In this document: positions 1 through 7,724 of the stretch, piece after piece
How positions within the stretch are numbered: the first letter of the stretch is position 1
How the letters are laid out: every line of letters begins with the position of its first letter
Assembly (NCBI GenBank): GCA_015665315.1
Contig: JADFAK010000089.1
Location: 1 to 57,616, forward strand
Source: Flavobacteriales bacterium
Lineage (GTDB): Bacteria; Bacteroidota; Bacteroidia; Flavobacteriales_D; Sanyastnellaceae
Length of the DNA stretch: 57,616 nucleotides
Direction of reading: 5' to 3'
The notes under the pieces: generated by a model
Told to the model about the DNA's origin: nothing
Seen by the model: only the letters and a program-made list of their open reading frames with translations
Databases searched by the model: none
Translations under genes and position numbers: made by a program

Positions 1-107
1 GAATGACAGCTTGTAGTAAAGTCTCAATAAGAGGGCTAGGTCATCGAGCAAAGCGCTCCAGAATCTGTCGACATATGGCCAAGCAGTTTAAGCGCGTCGC
101 CGAGATG

Positions 108-235
108 CCGCTTTACGCTCCGATGAATCGAGTCAACACGAATCTCATTCAAAGGCCGGTCCCTTTTTGTAGAGTGAAATTCAATCTTTCACAGAACGGA
201 GCTTGTGGAGGTCCTATCTCTATGACAGCAAGTGC
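108..235. repeat. 128-bp direct repeat, copy 1
   Basis: This stretch recurs at 509-636 in the same orientation, offset by 401 bp, with only two mismatches (at 125 and 231). It begins ccgctttacgctccgat and ends ctatgacagcaagtgc. The flanks of the two copies differ, so the repeat has clear boundaries. It has no coding character. Near-identity over 128 noncoding bases suggests recent duplication or a dispersed genomic repeat. Confidence 0.95.
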
Positions 236-246
236 CTACTAGTAAC

Positions 247-312
247 CGACCCAGTATGGGTCGCATCTTTATAACCGCAGGTCGAAGATACAACCTGACC
301 CTGTAGGGGTCA
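247..312. repeat. Pair of REP-like hairpins (REPIN-like arrangement)
   Basis: Two short hairpins lie 32 bp apart. The first is CGACCC-agtat-GGGTCG (247-263) and the second is TGACCC-tgtag-GGGTCA (296-312). Each has a 6-bp stem and a 5-nt loop with a central GTA. The spacing resembles paired REP sequences (REPINs), which in other bacteria are mobilised by REP-associated tyrosine transposases. No such transposase is in this window, so the mechanism is inference. Confidence 0.6.
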
Positions 313-354
313 CACCTAACACTGATTGTTAATCTTAATCCTTCACTTTCCGTC

Positions 355-374
355 ACTTTTGCTTGATCAAAAGT
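355..374. repeat. Hyphenated palindrome ACTTTTG-cttgat-CAAAAGT
   Basis: A 7-bp perfect inverted repeat around a 6-nt spacer, followed by aaccaaaaatcaaggc. Similar stretches are, from memory, frequent in intergenic DNA of Flavobacteriales and other Bacteroidota. I cannot verify copy number here. Function unknown; it does not look like a terminator because no gene ends into it. Confidence 0.5.
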
Positions 375-508
375 AACCAAAAATCAAGGCTGGTGAATAA
401 GATCCTAGTTGACTTAGCGATTCATCTGCACTACGGAAGTAAAACTCGGAAACGCTTTTAGCGGAGGCCTCTTCGAGCCATCCGAAAGCTGACCTCAGAC
501 ACCTACTT

Positions 509-636
509 CCGCTTTACGCTCCGATAAATCGAGTCAACACGAATCTCATTCAAAGGCCGGTCCCTTTTTGTAGAGTGAAATTCAATCTTTCACAGAACGG
601 AGCTTGTGGAGGTCCTATCTCTATGACAGCAGGTGC
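509..636. repeat. 128-bp direct repeat, copy 2
   Basis: Second copy of the element at 108-235, same orientation, two mismatches. It is followed within 15 bp by the third REP-like hairpin (651-665). Copy 1 is likewise followed, 12 bp after its end, by the first hairpin (247-263). Direct repeat plus hairpin may therefore be one composite unit. Confidence 0.95.
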
Positions 637-650
637 TCGAACAACTACAG

Positions 651-665
651 GACCTCGTAGAGGTC
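651..665. repeat. Third REP-like hairpin
   Basis: GACCT-cgtag-AGGTC: a 5-bp perfect stem with a 5-nt loop. It has the same loop size and central GTA as the hairpins at 247-263 and 296-312, but the stem is changed by compensating substitutions (CCC/GGG to CCT/AGG). Stem covariation around a fixed loop argues for conserved secondary structure. Confidence 0.55.
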
Positions 666-867
666 AAATATCGGTAGGACTGCAATGACTCCATCACCTA
701 TAACGCCAAGACCGTAGTTTGAGAAAAGCATATCCCTTTGTTAGTGGCTGCAGTGCGCATGATGGAAGACACTCCACCTATTGACTTTCTGTGGGTTATC
801 AAGCAAAGCGGTTTGAGGATAGTCTAAATATTCAACATGAGTTGAGCCGCGCCGTCGAGATGGTTTC

Positions 868-1911
868 CTATTCCACAACAACCCTCACCGCTTTCACTCC
901 ATCCGCACTAGTCAAGTAGTACATGCCTTTTGATATAGCCTCCGGCAAATGCAAGGAGCCCGTTCCGGGACTTACCTTGAAAGTTGTGACTTGTCGGCCC
1001 ATTGTGTCGGATAGAATAAACTCGGTCGCGTGGTTAAACCCTGATGTGTAGTTTAAGATTCCCTTGGTCGGATTGGGGTAAAAGTTGATGGATGCTTTAA
1101 CTGCATTGGCTTCTGGAATCGCTGTCGTCGAACCAATAGACAAGAATACTCCGCTATCGGCGCCATTGTCGGTTACATCCGCAATGCCCATTTTGAGGTG
1201 GTGGCTGGATCCTGGGGTTACGGCGATCGTTGCGTAGAGCGGAGTGTTGAATCCGTCGTACTGGTGGGTGGTTTCTTCGATGGTTAGTGGACAGTTAAAC
1301 GCATCGTCGCAGGGAGTGGTGTCAAGATTCATGGGATCGGAGCACACGTAAACTTCGGAATTTGCACCGAAACAGTTGACATTGTTCACGCACACCGGAT
1401 CACCGTTTGGAAGCAAGGCAATGTTCTCCCCGTCAAGCCAAATGGCAAATACGTCGTTGTATATGATATTGGCCACCCACTCGGGATACTCTTCGGAGGC
1501 AAAGACAAAGTGGATAAAAATCGAATCGGTCCCGGCGATAAAATCAAATTCCAACACCGAAGCATCTTCTGTCTCACCCCCCGCAATCGCCGTTAAATCG
1601 TCATCGCCGATGAGTCCGGTATTGTCAAAAATCCCTACTTCCAACAAGTCATTGACGCCCATGGCCAGTCGGCAATCGCCATTGGTGAGGATGATGCCCG
1701 AATTCAGACCGATATTCGATTGCGAACCATCAAAAATCCCCCAGTAGTCTGGATTTCCCTTCGTGGTCAGATTGGTGATCGATTGCACCAGGTCACCAAA
1801 CTGCGTCTCAAGCATTAGCTGTGGGTCGGGAACGGTGTCCACAACCAATTGACTTTGGAGGTTTCCGGCAGTCAGAATTGAGAGAAGAAGAAAAAGGAAT
1901 ACTGATTTCAT
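868..1911 (-). CDS. Choice-of-anchor L domain protein, T9SS-sorted
   Basis: Exported 347-residue protein. I chose the internal start MKSVF because it opens directly into a signal peptide (residues 1-20, cleavage before Gln21); the longer frame adds 30 residues with no export signal. Residues about 45-260 match the choice-of-anchor L domain, with the hallmark FASEEYPEW (138-146) and a following NDVFAIWLDG. The C-terminus from FYPNPTKG (277-284) is a T9SS type A sorting domain, which directs secretion across the outer membrane and usually anchors the protein to the cell surface. The ligand or substrate is unknown. It is the last of a series of minus-strand exported-protein genes. Confidence 0.85.
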   Translation of the reverse strand: MKSVFLFLLLSILTAGNLQSQLVVDTVPDPQLMLETQFGDLVQSITNLTTKGNPDYWGIFDGSQSNIGLNSGIILTNGDCRLAMGVNDLLEVGIFDNTGLIGDDDLTAIAGGETEDASVLEFDFIAGTDSIFIHFVFASEEYPEWVANIIYNDVFAIWLDGENIALLPNGDPVCVNNVNCFGANSEVYVCSDPMNLDTTPCDDAFNCPLTIEETTHQYDGFNTPLYATIAVTPGSSHHLKMGIADVTDNGADSGVFLSIGSTTAIPEANAVKASINFYPNPTKGILNYTSGFNHATEFILSDTMGRQVTTFKVSPGTGSLHLPEAISKGMYYLTSADGVKAVRVVVE

Positions 1912-2057
1912 TGTAAAAGAGGTGGCGCACCTAGGATGCTGATTTGTTCTATAACCAAGCAACATACGACTTTCTTTGAGGAAAAGTAAAGCGATAGGCA
2001 CACAATTCGCTGGGTTTGATCTTGGATGGTATCAGTTCAGGAAAAAGCTGGAACATC

Positions 2058-2954
2058 TCAATATTTAACGAATCGCCGTATCCACTTCTTTCTATCCTTG
2101 GTGAGTTCCAGAATGTAAACACCTGCCGAAAGAGACTGCACGTCAATTTCGTTAAGGCCCCCAGAATGGACTATTTCCAATTCTGTTCTGCCGTCAGCGA
2201 TGTCTGAGACCCTTATGCTCGACCCAGATAAACCTTGGTTGAAGAAGAGGGTGTTCTCAACCGGATTGGGATAGAGTTTTAGCTCGGCCAATGTGCTTTG
2301 TTCGTCAATACCCACGTCTAGATACCAGTCGCAGTTTTCGTAAACGACATTGTAGGGAAGTGGCCATGATTCTTGTTGGTCCACAGGGCTCTCATAAACG
2401 TGTTCACCTATCTCGTTTTCATAGCAAATCAGGGTCCTTTCACCGTCATCAAACCAAAGAACGTCGCGGCCAAAGCTGAACAATTCACTGGCGCAACCCA
2501 CTTCTTCGACCCACCGATATGGCTGCGTCAAACCTTGTGAATTGGGCACTTCAAGCGTCATTCTTCTTGCCCAAGTCTCGTTCAAAAGCTGAACTGAATC
2601 CACAAGTGTAACATGAAGATACTCGGCATGGATGTCCTCGGTGATAAACGGGTTATGAAAGTACAGCGTGTCACCCTCATCCAATGTAAAATCGAAAAAA
2701 AGATGCTCTTCTACTTCACCAAATTTGATGCAATACCAAACATCCAGACTATCTCTAAAAAGTCCGTTCCCAATTACGGAGTACAACCGATTATTTACAA
2801 GACTGTCTCCCGTCACAGCATAGTTATTGGGCATGGAAACACCCATCATACCAAAATACGCCCATGTCCAATGGGCCCCCACACCGGGAACCGAATAATC
2901 TTGTCCGAAAGACAATTGGCTTAGAAAAACAAAGATGATCGCAGAATATCTCAT
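2058..2954 (-). CDS. Secreted hypothetical protein with T9SS sorting domain
   Basis: 298 residues. A signal peptide (residues 1-17, cleavage before Gln18 in SFGQDYS) is followed by a globular region rich in Trp, Tyr and acidic residues that I do not recognise. The C-terminal 72 residues starting LYPNPVEN (from 227) form a T9SS type A sorting domain, ending in the typical basic RRFVKY. Similar architectures are common among cell-surface proteins of Flavobacteriales, but no catalytic motif is visible. It lies between two other exported-protein genes on the same strand, separated by 31 bp from the SRPBCC gene upstream. Confidence 0.75.
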   Translation of the reverse strand: MRYSAIIFVFLSQLSFGQDYSVPGVGAHWTWAYFGMMGVSMPNNYAVTGDSLVNNRLYSVIGNGLFRDSLDVWYCIKFGEVEEHLFFDFTLDEGDTLYFHNPFITEDIHAEYLHVTLVDSVQLLNETWARRMTLEVPNSQGLTQPYRWVEEVGCASELFSFGRDVLWFDDGERTLICYENEIGEHVYESPVDQQESWPLPYNVVYENCDWYLDVGIDEQSTLAELKLYPNPVENTLFFNQGLSGSSIRVSDIADGRTELEIVHSGGLNEIDVQSLSAGVYILELTKDRKKWIRRFVKY

Positions 2955-2985
2955 GTTTTATGAATTGAATATAAATATAATCAAT

Positions 2986-3483
2986 TCACAACTGCCCCTC
3001 CGACTCTTCTTTCAAATCACTGGCAAATTTCTCAAAAACATCATCAAACGGCGGAATCTGCTTGGCGTACATCGGGAACATGAGTCCGCCGATTTTCTCG
3101 GTCATGGTGAAGGTCACTGTGCCCGAAGCATTGGATACGAGCGTATAAACCCTCTTCCCTTGCCCATCGGCCCAAACCATGTGCGCAGGAGCATCCATTT
3201 CTTTCACCTTGAGCTTGAAGGTTCGTTTATCGTCAAGAATTGACTTGAGTTGGATCTTTTCTCCTTTTTCGATCTTACCTTCGAATGAGGTCACGGTCGA
3301 GTTCCAGCGCGTGTACTGACTAGCCGTCGTCAACACAGCCCAAACGACTTCAATGTCGGCCTTGATATCGATGCTCACTGTCGTTTCCCGACTAAATGTC
3401 TTTTTGGTTGTTGTCGCCTTGCCGTTTTGGCCTTGTGCCCAGAATGTGAGACATACGAAGGCCGAGATAAGTAGATATTTCAT
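2986..3483 (-). CDS. Exported SRPBCC (START/Bet v 1-like) domain protein
   Basis: 165 residues. An N-terminal signal peptide (cleavage near Gln19) precedes an SRPBCC fold, a hydrophobic ligand-binding cup. The visible pattern is vsIDIKADIEVVWAVLT, then ASQYTRWNSTVTSFEG, an internal LKVKEMDAPAHMVWA strand, and a long C-terminal helix near DDVFEKFASDLKEE. These match polyketide cyclase/dehydrase and AHSA1-like families. The export signal is unusual, because most SRPBCC proteins are cytosolic. The C-terminal helix normally closes the ligand pocket. The ligand is unknown. A perfect -7 box lies just upstream (3498-3505). Confidence 0.75.
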   Translation of the reverse strand: MKYLLISAFVCLTFWAQGQNGKATTTKKTFSRETTVSIDIKADIEVVWAVLTTASQYTRWNSTVTSFEGKIEKGEKIQLKSILDDKRTFKLKVKEMDAPAHMVWADGQGKRVYTLVSNASGTVTFTMTEKIGGLMFPMYAKQIPPFDDVFEKFASDLKEESEGQL

Positions 3484-3497
3484 GTGGTTGTTTTTAA

Positions 3498-3542
3498 CAA
3501 AAATAGCCCAATTGAGGAAATATGAAATTCGCTCAATTGGGC
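3498..3542 (-). terminator. Terminator hairpin overlapping a -7 promoter box
   Basis: An 11-bp perfect inverted repeat, GCCCAATTGAG (3506-3516) and CTCAATTGGGC (3532-3542), with a 15-nt loop. It lies 33 nt past the stop of the gene at 3576-5054, and on the minus strand it is followed by a T-rich run (tatttttgtt). That same run contains TATTTTTG (3505-3498), a perfect TAnnTTTG -7 box for the gene starting at 3483. The terminator of one gene and the promoter of the next therefore appear to share bases. Confidence 0.65.
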
Positions 3543-3575
3543 CAATAAAAAAGTCAAATACATTGGTATCGTTTT

Positions 3576-5054
3576 CTACTTCATGAAACGAAAGGAATCA
3601 ACAAAATCCCCTGATCCCAACTGTAGGACGTATGAGCCCTTGGCCAAATCTTCAATCTCCAGTTGGCTATTCTCAGTTGATTCAAACGATCCACTGGCGA
3701 CTTTTTGTCCATCAATTGAATAAATGCTGTAACGAAAAACACCTTCTGGCAAACCAGATATATGAAGGATTTCGACAGCAGGGTTAGGATAAAGCTGAAC
3801 ATTCCCTACGTCAAGGCGATCATCCACTCCTATAATCTGTTGAACTTCGATATCAAGGCAAATTTGGGCACTTGAACAACCTTCTGAGTCGGTTTCTACG
3901 ACGCAGACCATAAAGCTCCCTGCCTCTGTCCATTGAATGGTAATGGAGCCATCATCTTCGCTCACAATAGTACCAGCCGAACTGATTTCCCACACATAGC
4001 TGCTTCCAGCAGTGAATGGATACGAGTAGACCTGGTCTTCAAATTGAATAGGTGCTTCTTCTCCTACAATCGCAAATGTCTCTAGAAAAACACAGCTCCC
4101 ATCGTCATCAGTTGCCAATGAATCAAAGTTACAAGCGATCTCATCCGTGCAGCCATCAATCTCAAATTCATCACATACTCCGTCTCCATCGGCATCATTA
4201 AAACAATCACCATTGCAATCGTAAAATTCAGTTTCATAAAAACAATCGCCGCTATCGTCGGTGGCATCCGGATTGAAATTGCAAGCAAGGCTATCGTAAC
4301 AGCCTGGTATTTCAAGCTCATCACACACACCATCACCGTCGGTGTCGCTTAGGCAATTACCCTCACAATCGTAAAAATCCTCAGGAAGAATACAGCTTCC
4401 ATCGTCGCAGGCGGCCGTCGAGTCATAATTGCAAGCATTCGGAATAGCACAGCCTCCGTAGATGCAAAAGTTGTTGTCTTCAATGACAAATTCCTCGTAG
4501 TTGCACGCTGTTTCATCGGTACATCCATAACCGAGAATCTGAAGGTCTATAGCTGGCAAACTGAAAGGAAAAGTCGAGGGAATGCCAATAATAGCGGCAT
4601 GAATATCAAAGTTAAATATCAACTCGAAGCTTCCAGACTCAATGGCCGTGCCTTCCAATGCGATGCAGTATTGCATGTCGGGTAAAAAAGAGCAATCTAG
4701 CACCAAAGCACCTTGGTTGTTGCACGTCAAGGCTATGCCTATGTCATTGAGATTTACCTCCACTCCACCTTGTAATGTGGTAACGCCAACAAATGAGAGC
4801 GAGTCAACAGTCAGCCCCAAAGTGCCCAAAAGTGGGTCGATTTCACCTGCTTCTTCAGGTACGACGAAATGGAAAACATCCGAGTAGAAAGAGTTTATAA
4901 CCCCAGATGCAAACGATTCAGACGCATCGGCATTGGGATAGTAGCCAAATGCCGCTCCACCAAAATCAAAATTGGGGTCGCATTGTGCGTTGGAAATTGT
5001 TCCTGTGAGCAAGATTACTAGCAGGAAACTCAGCTGGGTAAATGTTGATTTCAT
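3576..5054 (-). CDS. T9SS-sorted surface protein with Asp/Cys-rich repeats
   Basis: 492 residues with a signal peptide (cleavage before Gln24). Residues about 178-325 contain a series of Cys/Asp-rich units of the type GCTDEIACNFDSLATDDDG. These are interleaved with two near-identical DGDGVCDE segments (239-246 and 289-296), which resemble calcium-binding thrombospondin type 3-like loops. A PKD/Ig-like stretch follows (about 340-405), then a T9SS type A sorting domain from LYPNPAVE (421 onward). The N-terminal 175 residues are unrecognised. The repeats suggest a rigid, calcium-stabilised stalk on the cell surface. A perfect TATCTTTG box ends 4 nt before the start codon. Confidence 0.8.
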   Translation of the reverse strand: MKSTFTQLSFLLVILLTGTISNAQCDPNFDFGGAAFGYYPNADASESFASGVINSFYSDVFHFVVPEEAGEIDPLLGTLGLTVDSLSFVGVTTLQGGVEVNLNDIGIALTCNNQGALVLDCSFLPDMQYCIALEGTAIESGSFELIFNFDIHAAIIGIPSTFPFSLPAIDLQILGYGCTDETACNYEEFVIEDNNFCIYGGCAIPNACNYDSTAACDDGSCILPEDFYDCEGNCLSDTDGDGVCDELEIPGCYDSLACNFNPDATDDSGDCFYETEFYDCNGDCFNDADGDGVCDEFEIDGCTDEIACNFDSLATDDDGSCVFLETFAIVGEEAPIQFEDQVYSYPFTAGSSYVWEISSAGTIVSEDDGSITIQWTEAGSFMVCVVETDSEGCSSAQICLDIEVQQIIGVDDRLDVGNVQLYPNPAVEILHISGLPEGVFRYSIYSIDGQKVASGSFESTENSQLEIEDLAKGSYVLQLGSGDFVDSFRFMK

Positions 5055-5058
5055 GGTT

Positions 5059-5066
5059 CAAAGATA
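5059..5066 (-). promoter_or_regulatory. -7 box TATCTTTG, 4 nt before ATG
   Basis: On the minus strand TATCTTTG (5066-5059) is followed by aacc and then the ATG at 5054. It matches the Bacteroidota -7 consensus TAnnTTTG exactly. Transcription normally starts a few bases after this box, so the mRNA would begin at or next to the start codon (leaderless). No good -33 TTG at standard spacing is visible. Confidence 0.6.
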
Positions 5067-5162
5067 AGAGTTCATATCGGCTTATCGAACCAAGTCAAAA
5101 ATCGCGCAAACTAGAGTCTGAATGAGACCATGAGGAAGATCGTACGCACGAGATTGAGCATG

Positions 5163-5756
5163 TTAATTCTGATACGAAGCCAATATATCCACCAGCAAAT
5201 CGGCACTCAAGCGGTCGGAGTATTTCGGGTTTACGTAATTGAAGACGACCTCCGCATTGTGGACGACATATACTGCAGGGACAGGTAACAAATGGTGCTT
5301 GTTCTCCGACCAAAATTCGAGGTCTACATCGTACTCGTCGCGGTACTTGACATACTTTTCATCGTCGACATGCCATGCCAAACCGAAGGCCTCAATGGCC
5401 GCTGCCGATTTGTCAGAAAGCAAGGTGAAGTTATACTCATTGGCTGCCGCTAGGTTCGCCGGAGAATCGGGAGAAATTGCGATCACTTCGTATCCCAAGG
5501 CTTCAATCGCACCAACCTTCTCTTTAAGCTCGGCCAACTGCCGAGAACAGTAAGAACACCAACCACCTCTGAAGAATACAAGGACGACGTTTTTGTCGGC
5601 TGTGTACTCGGCTAGATCAAATGGCTTGTCGGCAATGTCAAACACTTCACAACTTGGAATTACCGCCGAGTTTTTGAGCGGACAGATATCCTCCATTGTT
5701 TGTGCCGCGCCGGATAGCGCAAAGAGGAATGAAACTAGGAATAGGATTGATTTCAT
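5163..5756 (-). CDS. Exported AhpC/TSA-family thioredoxin-fold protein
   Basis: 197 residues. A signal peptide (cleavage before Gln19) precedes a peroxiredoxin-like AhpC/TSA domain. The active-site motif FFRGGWCSYC (61-70) places a CxxC pair at Cys67 and Cys70. The cis-Pro loop is probably LLPVPAVYVV. Two further cysteines (25 and 36) lie in the N-terminal extension. It probably reduces peroxides or disulfides in the periplasm. A homologous protein at 25962-26687 has the same layout but has lost both cysteines. It is flanked by the T9SS repeat protein and an NTF2-like protein on the same strand. Confidence 0.8.
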   Translation of the reverse strand: MKSILFLVSFLFALSGAAQTMEDICPLKNSAVIPSCEVFDIADKPFDLAEYTADKNVVLVFFRGGWCSYCSRQLAELKEKVGAIEALGYEVIAISPDSPANLAAANEYNFTLLSDKSAAAIEAFGLAWHVDDEKYVKYRDEYDVDLEFWSENKHHLLPVPAVYVVHNAEVVFNYVNPKYSDRLSADLLVDILASYQN

Positions 5757-5933
5757 GCTTGTGATTTTATTGTAAATGGTAAATCATGCTCTCGGCACGG
5801 ACTCCTTTTCCAATCATTTTTTGAAATGGAAGGTCAGAGCGTGTACGGGTACGATTGTAGAGATTCTAACTAGATCAACTTCCCCAAAACATCGAACTCA
5901 CTACTCGAATTCCGTATTGTTAAATCGAAAATA

Positions 5934-6392
5934 TTAATCCTTTGGAGATGAGTTCCAAATATCAAGGTACATCAACCATTTTCCCTTGACCTTTTTCCAA
6001 ACCACGACATATTTTCCCTGCCAGTTACTTTCTGTTCCATCGGCCAGGCGGGTGGTGCCCTCGTATAAGCCGTAGTCGTATGCTAGGTCACCTATTACAG
6101 TAATTTCTATAGCAGTGATTTTATGGTACGTGATGGTTACTTCGCTGTCGCGTGTCCAGTATTTGGCCAAGTCAGAAGTGCCTTCAATGATCGGTCGGCC
6201 ACCCGCGAAAATCTTCCCATCGCTAGTATAGCATCCCGCAAGTGCTTCTTTATCACCGGCCTCCACATATTTCGAGAATTGTCTCGAACCAGCTATGATC
6301 CCATCAATATCTTCTTGTGGGCCTTCGTAGGTCTGCGCATGCGCGCAAATGCTTAGCAGAAGTACCGAGAAACTAAGGAGTAGTGTTTTCAT
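5934..6392 (-). CDS. Exported NTF2-like (SnoaL/DUF4440) domain protein
   Basis: 152 residues with a signal peptide (cleavage before Gln20, CAHAQTYEG). The rest is one NTF2-like alpha+beta domain: an N-terminal helix with GDKEALAGCYTSDGKIFAGG, then IEGTSDLAKYWT and DLAYDYGLYEG, ending with WKKVKGKWLMYLDIWNS. This pattern fits the DUF4440/SnoaL-like ketosteroid-isomerase-related family. Members bind or isomerise small hydrophobic molecules, and many have no known activity. The substrate cannot be inferred. It sits 36 bp downstream of the Tiki/EreA-like gene and may be co-transcribed with it. Confidence 0.75.
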   Translation of the reverse strand: MKTLLLSFSVLLLSICAHAQTYEGPQEDIDGIIAGSRQFSKYVEAGDKEALAGCYTSDGKIFAGGRPIIEGTSDLAKYWTRDSEVTITYHKITAIEITVIGDLAYDYGLYEGTTRLADGTESNWQGKYVVVWKKVKGKWLMYLDIWNSSPKD

Positions 6393-6428
6393 GCCCCCAA
6401 TCTATGAAATAGAGACGGTCTACACCTG

Positions 6429-7724
6429 TTACTTTTTCTTAACGTTTGAGAAAACGACTTCGTTGATCGAAATCACATTTAGCTCGGCACTGGAGACTTC
6501 CTTGCGCTCAATGTTTGATGCCTTTACGATGAATTCACCTTTGGGAAGAAAAACTGTATTCTTCGCGGCGAGGTCAGGTCCGATGATAAATTGATCCATT
6601 GGCAGACCATCCTTCTCTTCTCCCTTGGTGAAAACTTGTACGAGTGTGAGATCAGAAATTCCTTCAAGGAGTTTCACGGGAAGAGTCACGGGAAATCGCA
6701 ATTCAGGACTGGTGAAGCGCAAGTACCAGTCTGGTCGGCCATCCACGTATTTAGTGCGAGGATGGAAAACAAACACATCAGAAGTTGTGTTTTCGCAGTA
6801 CAGGTCTTTTCCTTTTTTTAGGACAAATGGCTCTTTGAGCTTGTATTCCTTTAAAGCCAACTGGTAGAATGGCGATTCCTTGGAGGTGTTGTGCTCCTCC
6901 GAGAAGAATGTTTGGTTCACGCTCAACACTTTGCCCTTTGAAAGGCTCTCCAACCAATACGCCAGCGACTTTTGAGTTTTGTCTACATGTTCATATCCAC
7001 AATGTACAATGACCTTACCCTTTGGTGCATTTGCTTTATGCTCAATTATTTTTAATGCCGATACAGAGTCGCGCTGTGCAAACTGATACTCGGTGCTGTA
7101 ATCGTAAGGCAAAATTTCAAATCCCATATTAAGTGCCAAACGAATCAAATTCGCATAATTCGGCTCAATGGCTAGTCCGCCCAAATTCTCATCAATCTTC
7201 TTGCTTTCATTGATTGCGCTGCTGCTTGACCCAATTGACTCAATGGCCAAAGTCGTATAACCCTGCGCCTTCAAAGTAGACAGTAGTGACGACGTGAAAA
7301 TGCGGTGGAAGGGCTTGTGGTGCGACTCGTTGATTAATACGTAGTCCGACTTGGCAGCTGCTTTGGTAATCTCCGCCACGGCCGAATGTGCTGTAAATCC
7401 GCCCAATCCAGCAAAGTGCTCCAAATTCAAATTTCGAGGAGTCACTGAGTTTAAATCGAGCTCCAATGCTCTATTGTATTCTCCTACGTAGGAGTAATAC
7501 CAGGACAAACTTTGCTCGGCCAATGATTCCATCTCGCTGCCTTTTGCTGTTTTGAGCAGGGAGTCGGCCAACGCTATGGGGAACAAGTAATTTGGCGTCG
7601 AAGCCTCGTCGAAAATACCTTCGTGAATAGCTTTGCTCATCGCCATCACGTCTTGCTCGGGCGTATTCTGAGCGATAGAATTTACGGAGAGCAAACAGGC
7701 TAGGAAAACAACGAAATACCTCAT
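6429..7724 (-). CDS. Exported Tiki/ChaN/EreA-superfamily-like protein
   Basis: 431 residues with a signal peptide (cleavage before Gln19). After about 100 residues that may be a degenerate helical repeat, the sequence has INESHHKPFHR (131-141) and LAIES (159-163), and later VHCGYEHVDK. The E-x-H-H motif, the following E in a beta strand and a downstream His resemble the EreA/ChaN/Tiki superfamily, which includes erythromycin esterase-like and metallopeptidase proteins. A beta-rich C-terminal region of about 130 residues follows. No substrate is assignable; resistance to macrolides should not be assumed. Family placement is by motif only. Confidence 0.5.
   Translation of the reverse strand: MRYFVVFLACLLSVNSIAQNTPEQDVMAMSKAIHEGIFDEASTPNYLFPIALADSLLKTAKGSEMESLAEQSLSWYYSYVGEYNRALELDLNSVTPRNLNLEHFAGLGGFTAHSAVAEITKAAAKSDYVLINESHHKPFHRIFTSSLLSTLKAQGYTTLAIESIGSSSSAINESKKIDENLGGLAIEPNYANLIRLALNMGFEILPYDYSTEYQFAQRDSVSALKIIEHKANAPKGKVIVHCGYEHVDKTQKSLAYWLESLSKGKVLSVNQTFFSEEHNTSKESPFYQLALKEYKLKEPFVLKKGKDLYCENTTSDVFVFHPRTKYVDGRPDWYLRFTSPELRFPVTLPVKLLEGISDLTLVQVFTKGEEKDGLPMDQFIIGPDLAAKNTVFLPKGEFIVKASNIERKEVSSAELNVISINEVVFSNVKKK

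Follow-up and report, generated by a model that had tools for sequence, protein, structure and literature searches.

The closest described counterparts of the DNA analysed here are bacterial interspersed mosaic elements (BIMEs), in which palindromic units and other short motifs form mosaics in intergenic DNA, and the REPtron, a gene for a Y1 transposase (REP-associated tyrosine transposase, RAYT) flanked by a hairpin, the repetitive extragenic palindrome (REP), that is also found elsewhere in the genome. Small CGTC-tagged repeats form a further kind, and Bacteroidetes are among the phyla named for them in the relevant part of their description (PMC3733652). For TnpA-Y1 subclass 1.2, the corresponding part of a classification from 2018 states that typical terminal IS200 secondary structures are generally absent (PMC6006769). 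Here, we analyse a stretch of 57,616 nt (the window) from a Flavobacteriales bacterium (assembly GCA_015665315.1, contig JADFAK010000089.1), in which an earlier note had drawn attention to a near-identical 128-bp direct repeat. We regard it as rather probable that this repeat is the shared part of two units of an intergenic mosaic array, the hairpin modules of which are moved by Y1 transposases while recombination reshapes the arrays. In the following, Cnn denotes a contig of this genome (G000), Gnnn a genome and Lnnn a fetched locus or stretch.

The 128-nt repeat and the arrays

The window is contig C19 of a genome of 4.6 Mb in 219 contigs. Its two repeat copies (108-235 and 509-636) start 401 nt apart and are identical at 126 of 128 positions (98.438%), just as the earlier note had described. 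The suspicion that the repeat is a dispersed genomic element was borne out, because the 128-mer finds 31 matches on 16 contigs (E<=0.001); it is thus neither limited to two copies nor to a single place with hairpins. Window positions 1-867 yield 75 matches in the same genome, and in a comparison with 25 fetched stretches of that genome, matches elsewhere leave no part of bases 1-862 uncovered. The number of 128-mer matches is far above chance, as is that of the hairpin pattern GACCYNGTANRGGTC, for which 65 matches compare with 1 for the reversed control; seven of the 65 lie no more than about 0.6 kb from the C81 Y1 gene, and nine at the end of C144.

What did not stand is the view of the 128 bp as the element. 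The first 52 nt are the 3' end of a longer structured element, designated the K-element, and the following 76 nt constitute a module designated P, such that the ends of the 128-mer are junctions of independently swapped modules. Copy 2 belongs to a complete K-element (352-560), and in front of copy 1 the rest of the K-element is replaced by another element at 1-107, an arrangement that recurs in the copy on C11. As judged from these comparisons, two neighbouring array units appear to share the 128-bp stretch by happenstance, and it is not a unit in itself. The near-identity of the two copies would then reflect recent duplication or gene conversion inside the array. Behind the long copies of the 128-mer (the 12 places in the genome where >=100 nt align, read by eye), a hairpin with an NGTAN loop follows in six cases, an A/T-rich module Q in five and another sequence in one. 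Since half of these copies lack one, the hairpin is a frequent neighbour of the 128-mer and not a constant component. In the window, both hairpins have the loops previously described and the first lies at the distance claimed, 12 nt, while the second follows copy 2 after 14 nt instead of 15.

Several other identities were considered for the 128-mer and rejected. It is not coding, in line with the earlier note: an open frame of 79 aa (3-242) spans copy 1 alone, and no supported gene lies over the repeats. A structured RNA or DNA was rejected in view of folding close to that of shuffles (z -0.08 as DNA, -0.25 as RNA). A plasmid, phage or viral-contig element was rejected on the basis of searches in which window 1-867 matched no phage record and one plasmid record, over the K motif only (E<=1e-5), and the exact 25-base core of the 128-mer was absent from viral_contigs. 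An exact-pattern scan of genome_contigs for the core also gave 0 matches, with the own genome perhaps excluded from the scan. No inverted repeat of >=14 nt was found in window 1-2500, which leaves room for shorter inverted ends. The proposed search for further copies with target-site duplications returned the 31 matches, and no duplication was seen at the window repeat.

Window 1-862 reads as one of about 20 intergenic mosaic arrays of this genome. Their order is fixed: a T1 or T2 hairpin block is followed by GTCACTTTTGCTTGATC (the K 5' end), an interior of type K or S, AGTCAACACGAATCTYATTCAAAGGCCGG (the K 3' end) and finally P, Q or R. Within these slots, modules are freely exchanged between arrays. 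At 27 K 5' ends we counted T1-K nine times, T1-S eight, T2-K five, T2-S three and other combinations twice; at 24 K 3' ends the counts were K-P 10, S-P 5, S-Q 5, K-Q 1, S-R 1 and unclassified 2. Note that the slot classes are approximate string matches and that one P assignment (L069 480) looks more like R. According to a simple open reading frame caller, seven of 21 arrays are set between co-directional, two between convergent and two between divergent genes, and ten lie at a contig end, so that a gene is present on both sides in 11. Only four frames of >=80 aa (83-87 aa) lie wholly within the 21 arrays. None is supported as a gene, and the arrays appear to encode no supported protein.

An assembly artefact, with tandem copies produced when short reads were collapsed or misjoined at the end of a contig, is the least probable explanation. 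It would fit with the window beginning at the start of a contig, on account of which the array may extend beyond what is seen, and with the ten arrays that run off a contig. However, arrays inside contigs (C11, C51, C52, C67) contain the same modules in differing order and with sequence differences. Hardly more credible is a decayed remnant of one larger mobile element, such as an integron-like cassette array, a prophage or a transposon, with the repeats as its debris. Tandem units of about 400-600 bp in the same orientation, with conserved ends and swappable interiors, do resemble a cassette array; on the other hand, the only frames of >=80 aa wholly within the arrays are the four unsupported ones, and the phage, plasmid and viral-contig searches gave the results stated above.

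Two further stretches of this genome deserve mention. In L073 (G000 C22:6000-16000), a gene of about 1.6 kb is present in two tandem copies (~1900-6580) with array modules bordering each, as if it had been duplicated together with or through the array. L076 (G000 C28:23500-30000) contains about six head-to-tail units of ~78 bp of the type GGGGTCATCGAGCAAAGTGATT...CACGCCGTCGA (~2800-3340), a tandem CGTC-like element.

Hairpins and Y1 transposase genes

The genome contains three Y1_Tnp matches (C81, C94 and C130), and each of these genes is accompanied by hairpins that link it to the arrays. On C81, the gene stands between GACCCAGTATGGGTC hairpins, with one copy on one side and six on the other within about 0.6 kb, and the same hairpin is found in the arrays. 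Hairpins at the C94 gene carry the tail ATATCGGTAGAAC, the sister of which, ATATCGGTAGGAC, follows the T2 hairpins of the arrays; the tail pattern ATATCGGTAGRAC has 19 matches in the genome versus 0 for the control, ten of them in arrays and nine elsewhere, including the C94 locus, with 9 matches for the form ATATCGGTAGAAC and 10 for ATATCGGTAGGAC. A long hairpin brackets the C130 gene and recurs in arrays L066 and L081 (read by eye). The C94 and C81 proteins share a Y---Q--HH motif (YIENQEIHH and YIDRQKVHH, respectively), by which, and not by the hidden Markov model of PMC6006769, they were assigned to subclass 1.2. They score 76.6 and 67.9 bits on the NCBIfam IS200 model (cut-off 55), and the C130 protein reaches 87.1 bits on the NCBIfam REP-transposase model (cut-off 80). 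The hairpins shared with Y1 transposase genes and the scattered copies speak only indirectly for the mobility suggested in the earlier note. The ends of C81 and C144 (L083 3391-3796 and L082 6936-7652) carry similar tandem T1-hairpin arrays; the two contigs may therefore adjoin, which would put the Y1 gene beside one long hairpin array. Terminator-like sites at window positions 247-263 and 296-312 (0.6 expected) coincide with the T1 hairpins, and these could therefore also serve in transcription termination.

Repeated hairpins accompany such genes in relatives as well. Y1 homologues are present in 57 of 249 genomes (own genome included), which together contain 102 matches. Flanks were tested for the best match of each of 30 of these genomes. 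Two loci (L131, L136) had no Y---Q--HH frame by script, and 28 were kept, namely 27 from relatives and the own C94 gene. Within 600 b, one and the same hairpin stem is found two or more times in 26 of the 28 loci (2.5 expected by shuffling) and three or more times in 19 (0.2 expected); in total, 175 hairpins compare with 42.4 expected. Of 60 pieces of 1200 b picked at random from the window, none contained a repeated stem. The two negative loci are L134 and L117, the latter at a contig end with almost no right flank. Five of the 26 positives are weaker (L108, L110, L112, L113 and L121; p ~0.02-0.05 by 60 shuffles). Stems vary from gene to gene (GTCCC, GCCCC, GACCC, ACTCC, ATGCC and others), which would be expected under co-evolution of transposase and hairpin. 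The pattern GACYCCNNNGGRGTC, chosen from six loci, has 62, 31, 16, 5, 3 and 0 matches in the six genomes concerned, compared with 0 or 1 in eight genomes lacking a homologue; the reversed control likewise gave 0 or 1. For the genomes with 62 and 31 matches, their located positions demonstrate dispersal over many contigs.

Y1 transposases may thus act, or have acted, in trans on the hairpin modules as single-stranded DNA, as proposed for REPs and RAYTs. Arrays would grow, shrink and swap interiors via recombination or template switching between repeated ends, and recombination between these ends would also duplicate units. Spread of the modules through Y1 action and recombination is what we infer from the arrays and the hairpins taken together. 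For arrays like this one, loss of the 401-bp interval through recombination, as envisaged in the earlier note, is plausible.

A number of observations weigh against this interpretation. The C81 and C94 proteins reach only 35.8 and 39.5 bits on the REP-transposase model, below its cut-off of 80. A GTAG-type 5' foot is absent from the hairpins on both strands (feet AACC/ATGC and ACCT/GTGT for T1, ACAG/ATTT for T2). GTAG occurs near T2 only on the 3' side, 8 nt off. Because the foot is missing, T1 was not filed as a REP, although the flanking-gene feature is present. No sign of insertion in action, neither an empty site nor a target-site duplication, was seen. Six of the 12 long 128-mer copies lack a following NGTAN hairpin, and the 128-mer itself folds like its shuffles. 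Twelve of the 27 K 5' ends carry an S interior, in which the 3' arm of the K-element stem is lost; array growth therefore does not require K pairing. With respect to GACYCCNNNGGRGTC, all five matches in G186 lie at its Y1 locus, i.e., without dispersal, and for the genomes with 16 and 3 matches the evidence consists of counts and not of positions. One Y1-bearing genome has 0 matches, as the pattern does not suit its stem, and so does the own genome, where the stems differ. Finally, in a search of 60 genomes with window 1-867, seven genomes besides the own one matched, sharing only a K-motif piece, and the one genome of the same genus had no match; this search scored at most eight candidates per genome and may have missed weak copies.

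The K-element

The only part of window 1-867 with matches in other genomes, in the search of 60, lies within 349-393 and corresponds to the 5' part of the K-element. In relatives, this motif comprises a stem (S1) of 9-11 bp or longer with the loop CTTGAY, followed by CAAAA(A) and then by RTCAAG, which is complementary to the loop (S2). With the rod hairpin downstream of the motif, the entire element has a size of about 150-230 nt. The K-element is pseudoknot-capable, its loop being predicted to pair with the next bases either as a pseudoknot or as an alternating switch. A link of 5-7 nt across a stem of 9-11 bp, with no base between the helices, is tight for a classical H-type pseudoknot, and S1 and S2 may therefore alternate.

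Covariation was analysed on 53 of 84 model matches, which collapsed to 39 distinct pieces; the remaining 31 were left out as same-place repeats, antisense or weak. Over these pieces, 96.4% of cells pair compared with 80.1 in shuffles, 96 cells are changed on both sides (27.1 in shuffles), and the covariation score is 0.416 compared with 0.109 (sd 0.013) in shuffles and 0.067-0.102 in slid registers, noting that the shuffles do not preserve relatedness. In S1, seven of the nine pairs have double changes, and in S2 one of the six; these eight pairs compare with 5.9 in shuffles (10 of 500 reach this value). Further pair types are not in excess (17 versus 17.1; 335 of 500 reach this value). Model R1 was built from five sequences with S1 held as pairs, and its hits consequently lean towards S1 pairing. 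Of the six S2 pairs, five have little freedom to vary because rows were chosen by patterns for the loop (C[TC]T[GA]A[TCA]) and for the sequence pairing with it (TCAAG). The sixth pair is UA in 33, CG in four, AU in one and unpaired in one. Free support for S2 besides this pair comes from CTTGAC/GTCAAG in Parabacteroides and AAGGAT/ATCCT in Acinetobacter (by eye). Further cases of loop complementarity occur among 46 folded loci, for which the script demanded a loop complement. Of seven fetched copies from G196, four combine CTTGAC with GTCAAG and three CTTGAT with ATCAAG. Their alignment gives 56 predicted pairs (10 in S1, 46 in the rod), 20 of them with double changes (three in S1, 17 in the rod), the structure having been predicted on the same alignment.

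Stable folds were obtained for single copies, with z -7.87 for L183:939-1155 and z -3.50 for window 352-562. Forty-eight loci were tried, of which one had no motif by script and one value per column was missing. In the resulting 46, the 200 nt downstream of the motif have a mean z of -2.27 (below -2 in 22), whereas the means are -0.84 upstream (below -2 in nine) and -0.48 further down (six). These data raise the possibility that the K-element is a structured RNA, with pseudoknot and rod, that acts from intergenic regions and is repeated through selection on RNA. Covariation in S1 and one S2 pair, the double changes in G196 and the stable folds are in keeping with it. However, folding as single-stranded DNA would give equal covariation, 24 of the 46 downstream stretches fall short of z -2, window 1-900 has no promoter-like site in a sigma-70-type scan, which may not apply to this host, and copy number and tandem spacing vary strongly. 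Rfam 15 also gave no match in window 1-3000 (E<=1) or in five motif loci (E<=0.1), and at the gathering cut-off 20 array loci contained two tRNAs only. We consider an RNA role unlikely.

The K motif model matches in 81 of 249 relatives (E<=0.01) and in 107 of 395 genomes of the phylum (E<=0.001), the own genome being included in both; E-values are rough, stricter filters were applied and a limited number of candidates was scored. One exact spelling of the motif had 0 matches in genome_contigs, again with the own genome perhaps excluded from the scan. That spelling is therefore not widespread, and the family is found only by the model. A K stem pattern with a free loop was discarded: it occurred in 150 of 395 genomes, but the control pattern was often matched too, and true K motifs made up only a few of the rows listed (G542, G625). 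Outside the phylum, the megaplasmid pILYOP01 of Ilyobacter polytropus (Fusobacteriota) has 14 matches, 12 of which form six inverted pairs spanning 412-462 bp. By eye, these motifs (L271-L276) lie inside longer inverted ends near ATAAATTACTGAATTTAT, with interiors that differ among copies. Among other named records, Persicobacter has six matches and Parabacteroides, Aureibacter and Acinetobacter one each. The K stretch alone, at E up to 10, retrieved 15 plasmid and 17 phage records, and five of the plasmid records were inspected. In L209 (Acinetobacter plasmid NZ_CP098797.1, 1495-1536) a K-like stem carries the differing loop AAGGAT with a matching ATCCT downstream. In L249, L250 and L251, from other genomes of the phylum, K motifs stand in direct tandem ~270-425 bp apart; the rod sequence of the first L251 copy differs, with basal complementarity seemingly kept (by eye).

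These findings could also be read to mean that the active unit is the K-element, as a non-autonomous element of single-stranded DNA or one resembling a miniature inverted-repeat transposable element (MITE), with some enzyme recognising its folded 5' end and its rod; the arrays would then be tandem K-elements with the hairpins as passengers. We treat this as possible, if doubtful. K is multi-copy in many genomes, with at least 25 matches in one of the 249 relatives and at least 16 in one of the 395 phylum genomes, and the inverted pairs of pILYOP01 point in the same direction. The 5' flanks of the stem look unrelated in five of seven G196 copies, and AAGGCC stands 189-204 nt past the motif start in eight of 40 copies listed, the window included (~0.16 expected, for an interval chosen after the fact). 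Conversely, the 5' end is not sharply set, since most of 13 copies from G204 have a further 15-25 nt in common upstream of the stem, a feature also of two of the seven from G196, and alignments start up to ~130 nt upstream. Interiors differ greatly among genomes, no target-site duplication was identified at K-elements, and no enzyme has been linked to them. The K motif and Y---Q--HH Y1 genes do co-occur (32 of 249 genomes have both; odds ratio 3.7, p 4e-5), a figure uncorrected for ancestry or genome size. Between the two roles, one at the DNA level appears somewhat likelier than one at the RNA level because of the dispersal, the inverted pairs and the loss of the stem in S-type units.

Searches of open-licence literature by motif strings and descriptions turned up no recognisable description of the K-element, and neither did those for RAYT or REP in Bacteroidetes. 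We give an even chance to the combined proposal that the K-element is an undescribed dispersed non-coding family (~150-230 nt; a loop-pairing hairpin plus a long rod; in about a quarter of the sampled phylum genomes and at least one Fusobacteriota megaplasmid) and that a large class of hairpin repeats, so far unrecognised, has Y---Q--HH Y1 proteins as its REPtron-like partners.

Features of the window

Coordinates are compiled in Table 1. Three of five tested window proteins contain a type IX secretion system (T9SS) sorting domain above cut-off (TIGR04183), which agrees with an origin in Bacteroidota, given the known range of T9SS.

Table 1 Repeat modules, hairpins and nearest gene in the window.
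Position	Strand	Feature	Remarks
1..107	+	Partial small element of GGTCATCGAGCAAAGCGCT...CGTCGCCGAGATG type, CGTC-like	Stands in for K-element 5' part before copy 1; same at C11; sequence comparison
108..159	+	Copy 1, first part: K-element 3' end	Terminates AAAGGCCGG
160..235	+	Copy 1, second part: module P, degenerate hairpin	End near GGAGGTCCTATCTCTATGACAGC
248..262	+	T1 hairpin GACCCAGTATGGGTC (GACCC-AGTAT-GGGTC)	12 nt past copy 1; same hairpin flanks C81 Y1 gene
297..311	+	Second T1 hairpin GACCCTGTAGGGGTC	49 nt after first
352..560	+	Complete K-element, 209 nt: pseudoknot-capable hairpin (predicted), then rod hairpin	352-562 (211 nt): z -3.50, 0/200 shuffles as stable
352..377	+	K-element stem S1 (352-361 with 368-377), loop CTTGAT (362-367)	One C-A mismatch
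383..388	+	ATCAAG (S2)	Complement of S1 loop
509..560	+	Copy 2, first part: 3' end of complete K-element	
561..636	+	Copy 2, second part: module P	
651..665	+	T2 hairpin GACCTCGTAGAGGTC (GACCT-CGTAG-AGGTC)	14 nt past copy 2
668..680	+	T2 tail ATATCGGTAGGAC	As ATATCGGTAGAAC in hairpins of C94 Y1 gene
681..792	+	Remainder of T2 block	In other arrays abuts next K-element start
794..862	+	Second CGTC-like element (GGTTATCAAGCAAAGCGG...CCGCGCCGTCGAGATGG)	Repeat region ends here
868..2001	-	Choice-of-anchor L protein with T9SS sorting domain	Nearest gene

Comparison with known systems

If correct, these proposals would mean that, among relatives of the same order, a Y1 subclass described as generally hairpin-free is equipped with REP-like hairpins of its own, and would make a structured repeat with no assigned function a common feature of the phylum. 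Either would bear on genome annotation, on assembly breaks at arrays and on the shaping of intergenic DNA by HUH transposases.

The K-element resembles the structured RNAs of Rfam 15 in its covarying pseudoknot-capable and rod helices, but matches no family in the loci scanned. MITEs are likewise non-coding and dispersed, and the inverted pairs of Ilyobacter K-elements recall them, but the window repeat has neither inverted ends of the length searched for nor a visible target-site duplication. The elements at 1-107 and 794-862 may belong to the CGTC-tagged kind, a palindrome with a stem of 8-9 bp and a CCA-like tail: both are short repeats between genes that carry CGTC close to one end, although longer (~70 nt) and with stems and tails unmatched to the published families as far as these are given in the part of the description compared (PMC3733652). 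Proteins of TnpA-Y1 subclass 1.2 resemble those studied here in the Y---Q--HH and DHxH motifs and a length of ~150 aa. According to the part of the classification cited, they generally have no typical terminal IS200 secondary structures (PMC6006769), whereas 26 of 28 loci here have repeated flanking hairpins, although these may differ from the structures scored there. BIMEs and REP/RAYT systems differ from the arrays in the GTAG foot, which is missing here, in the two linked transposases with Y---Q--HH, which belong to the IS200 side, and in the units of the arrays, which measure about 400-600 bp and include a K-element. The basic unit of a BIME comprises two inverted REP copies; the T1 hairpins are nearly symmetric. 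Like BIMEs, the arrays lie between genes and combine palindromic units with other short motifs in a mosaic, and at C81, as in a REPtron, a gene for a Y1 HUH transposase is flanked by the same hairpin that is found elsewhere in the genome.
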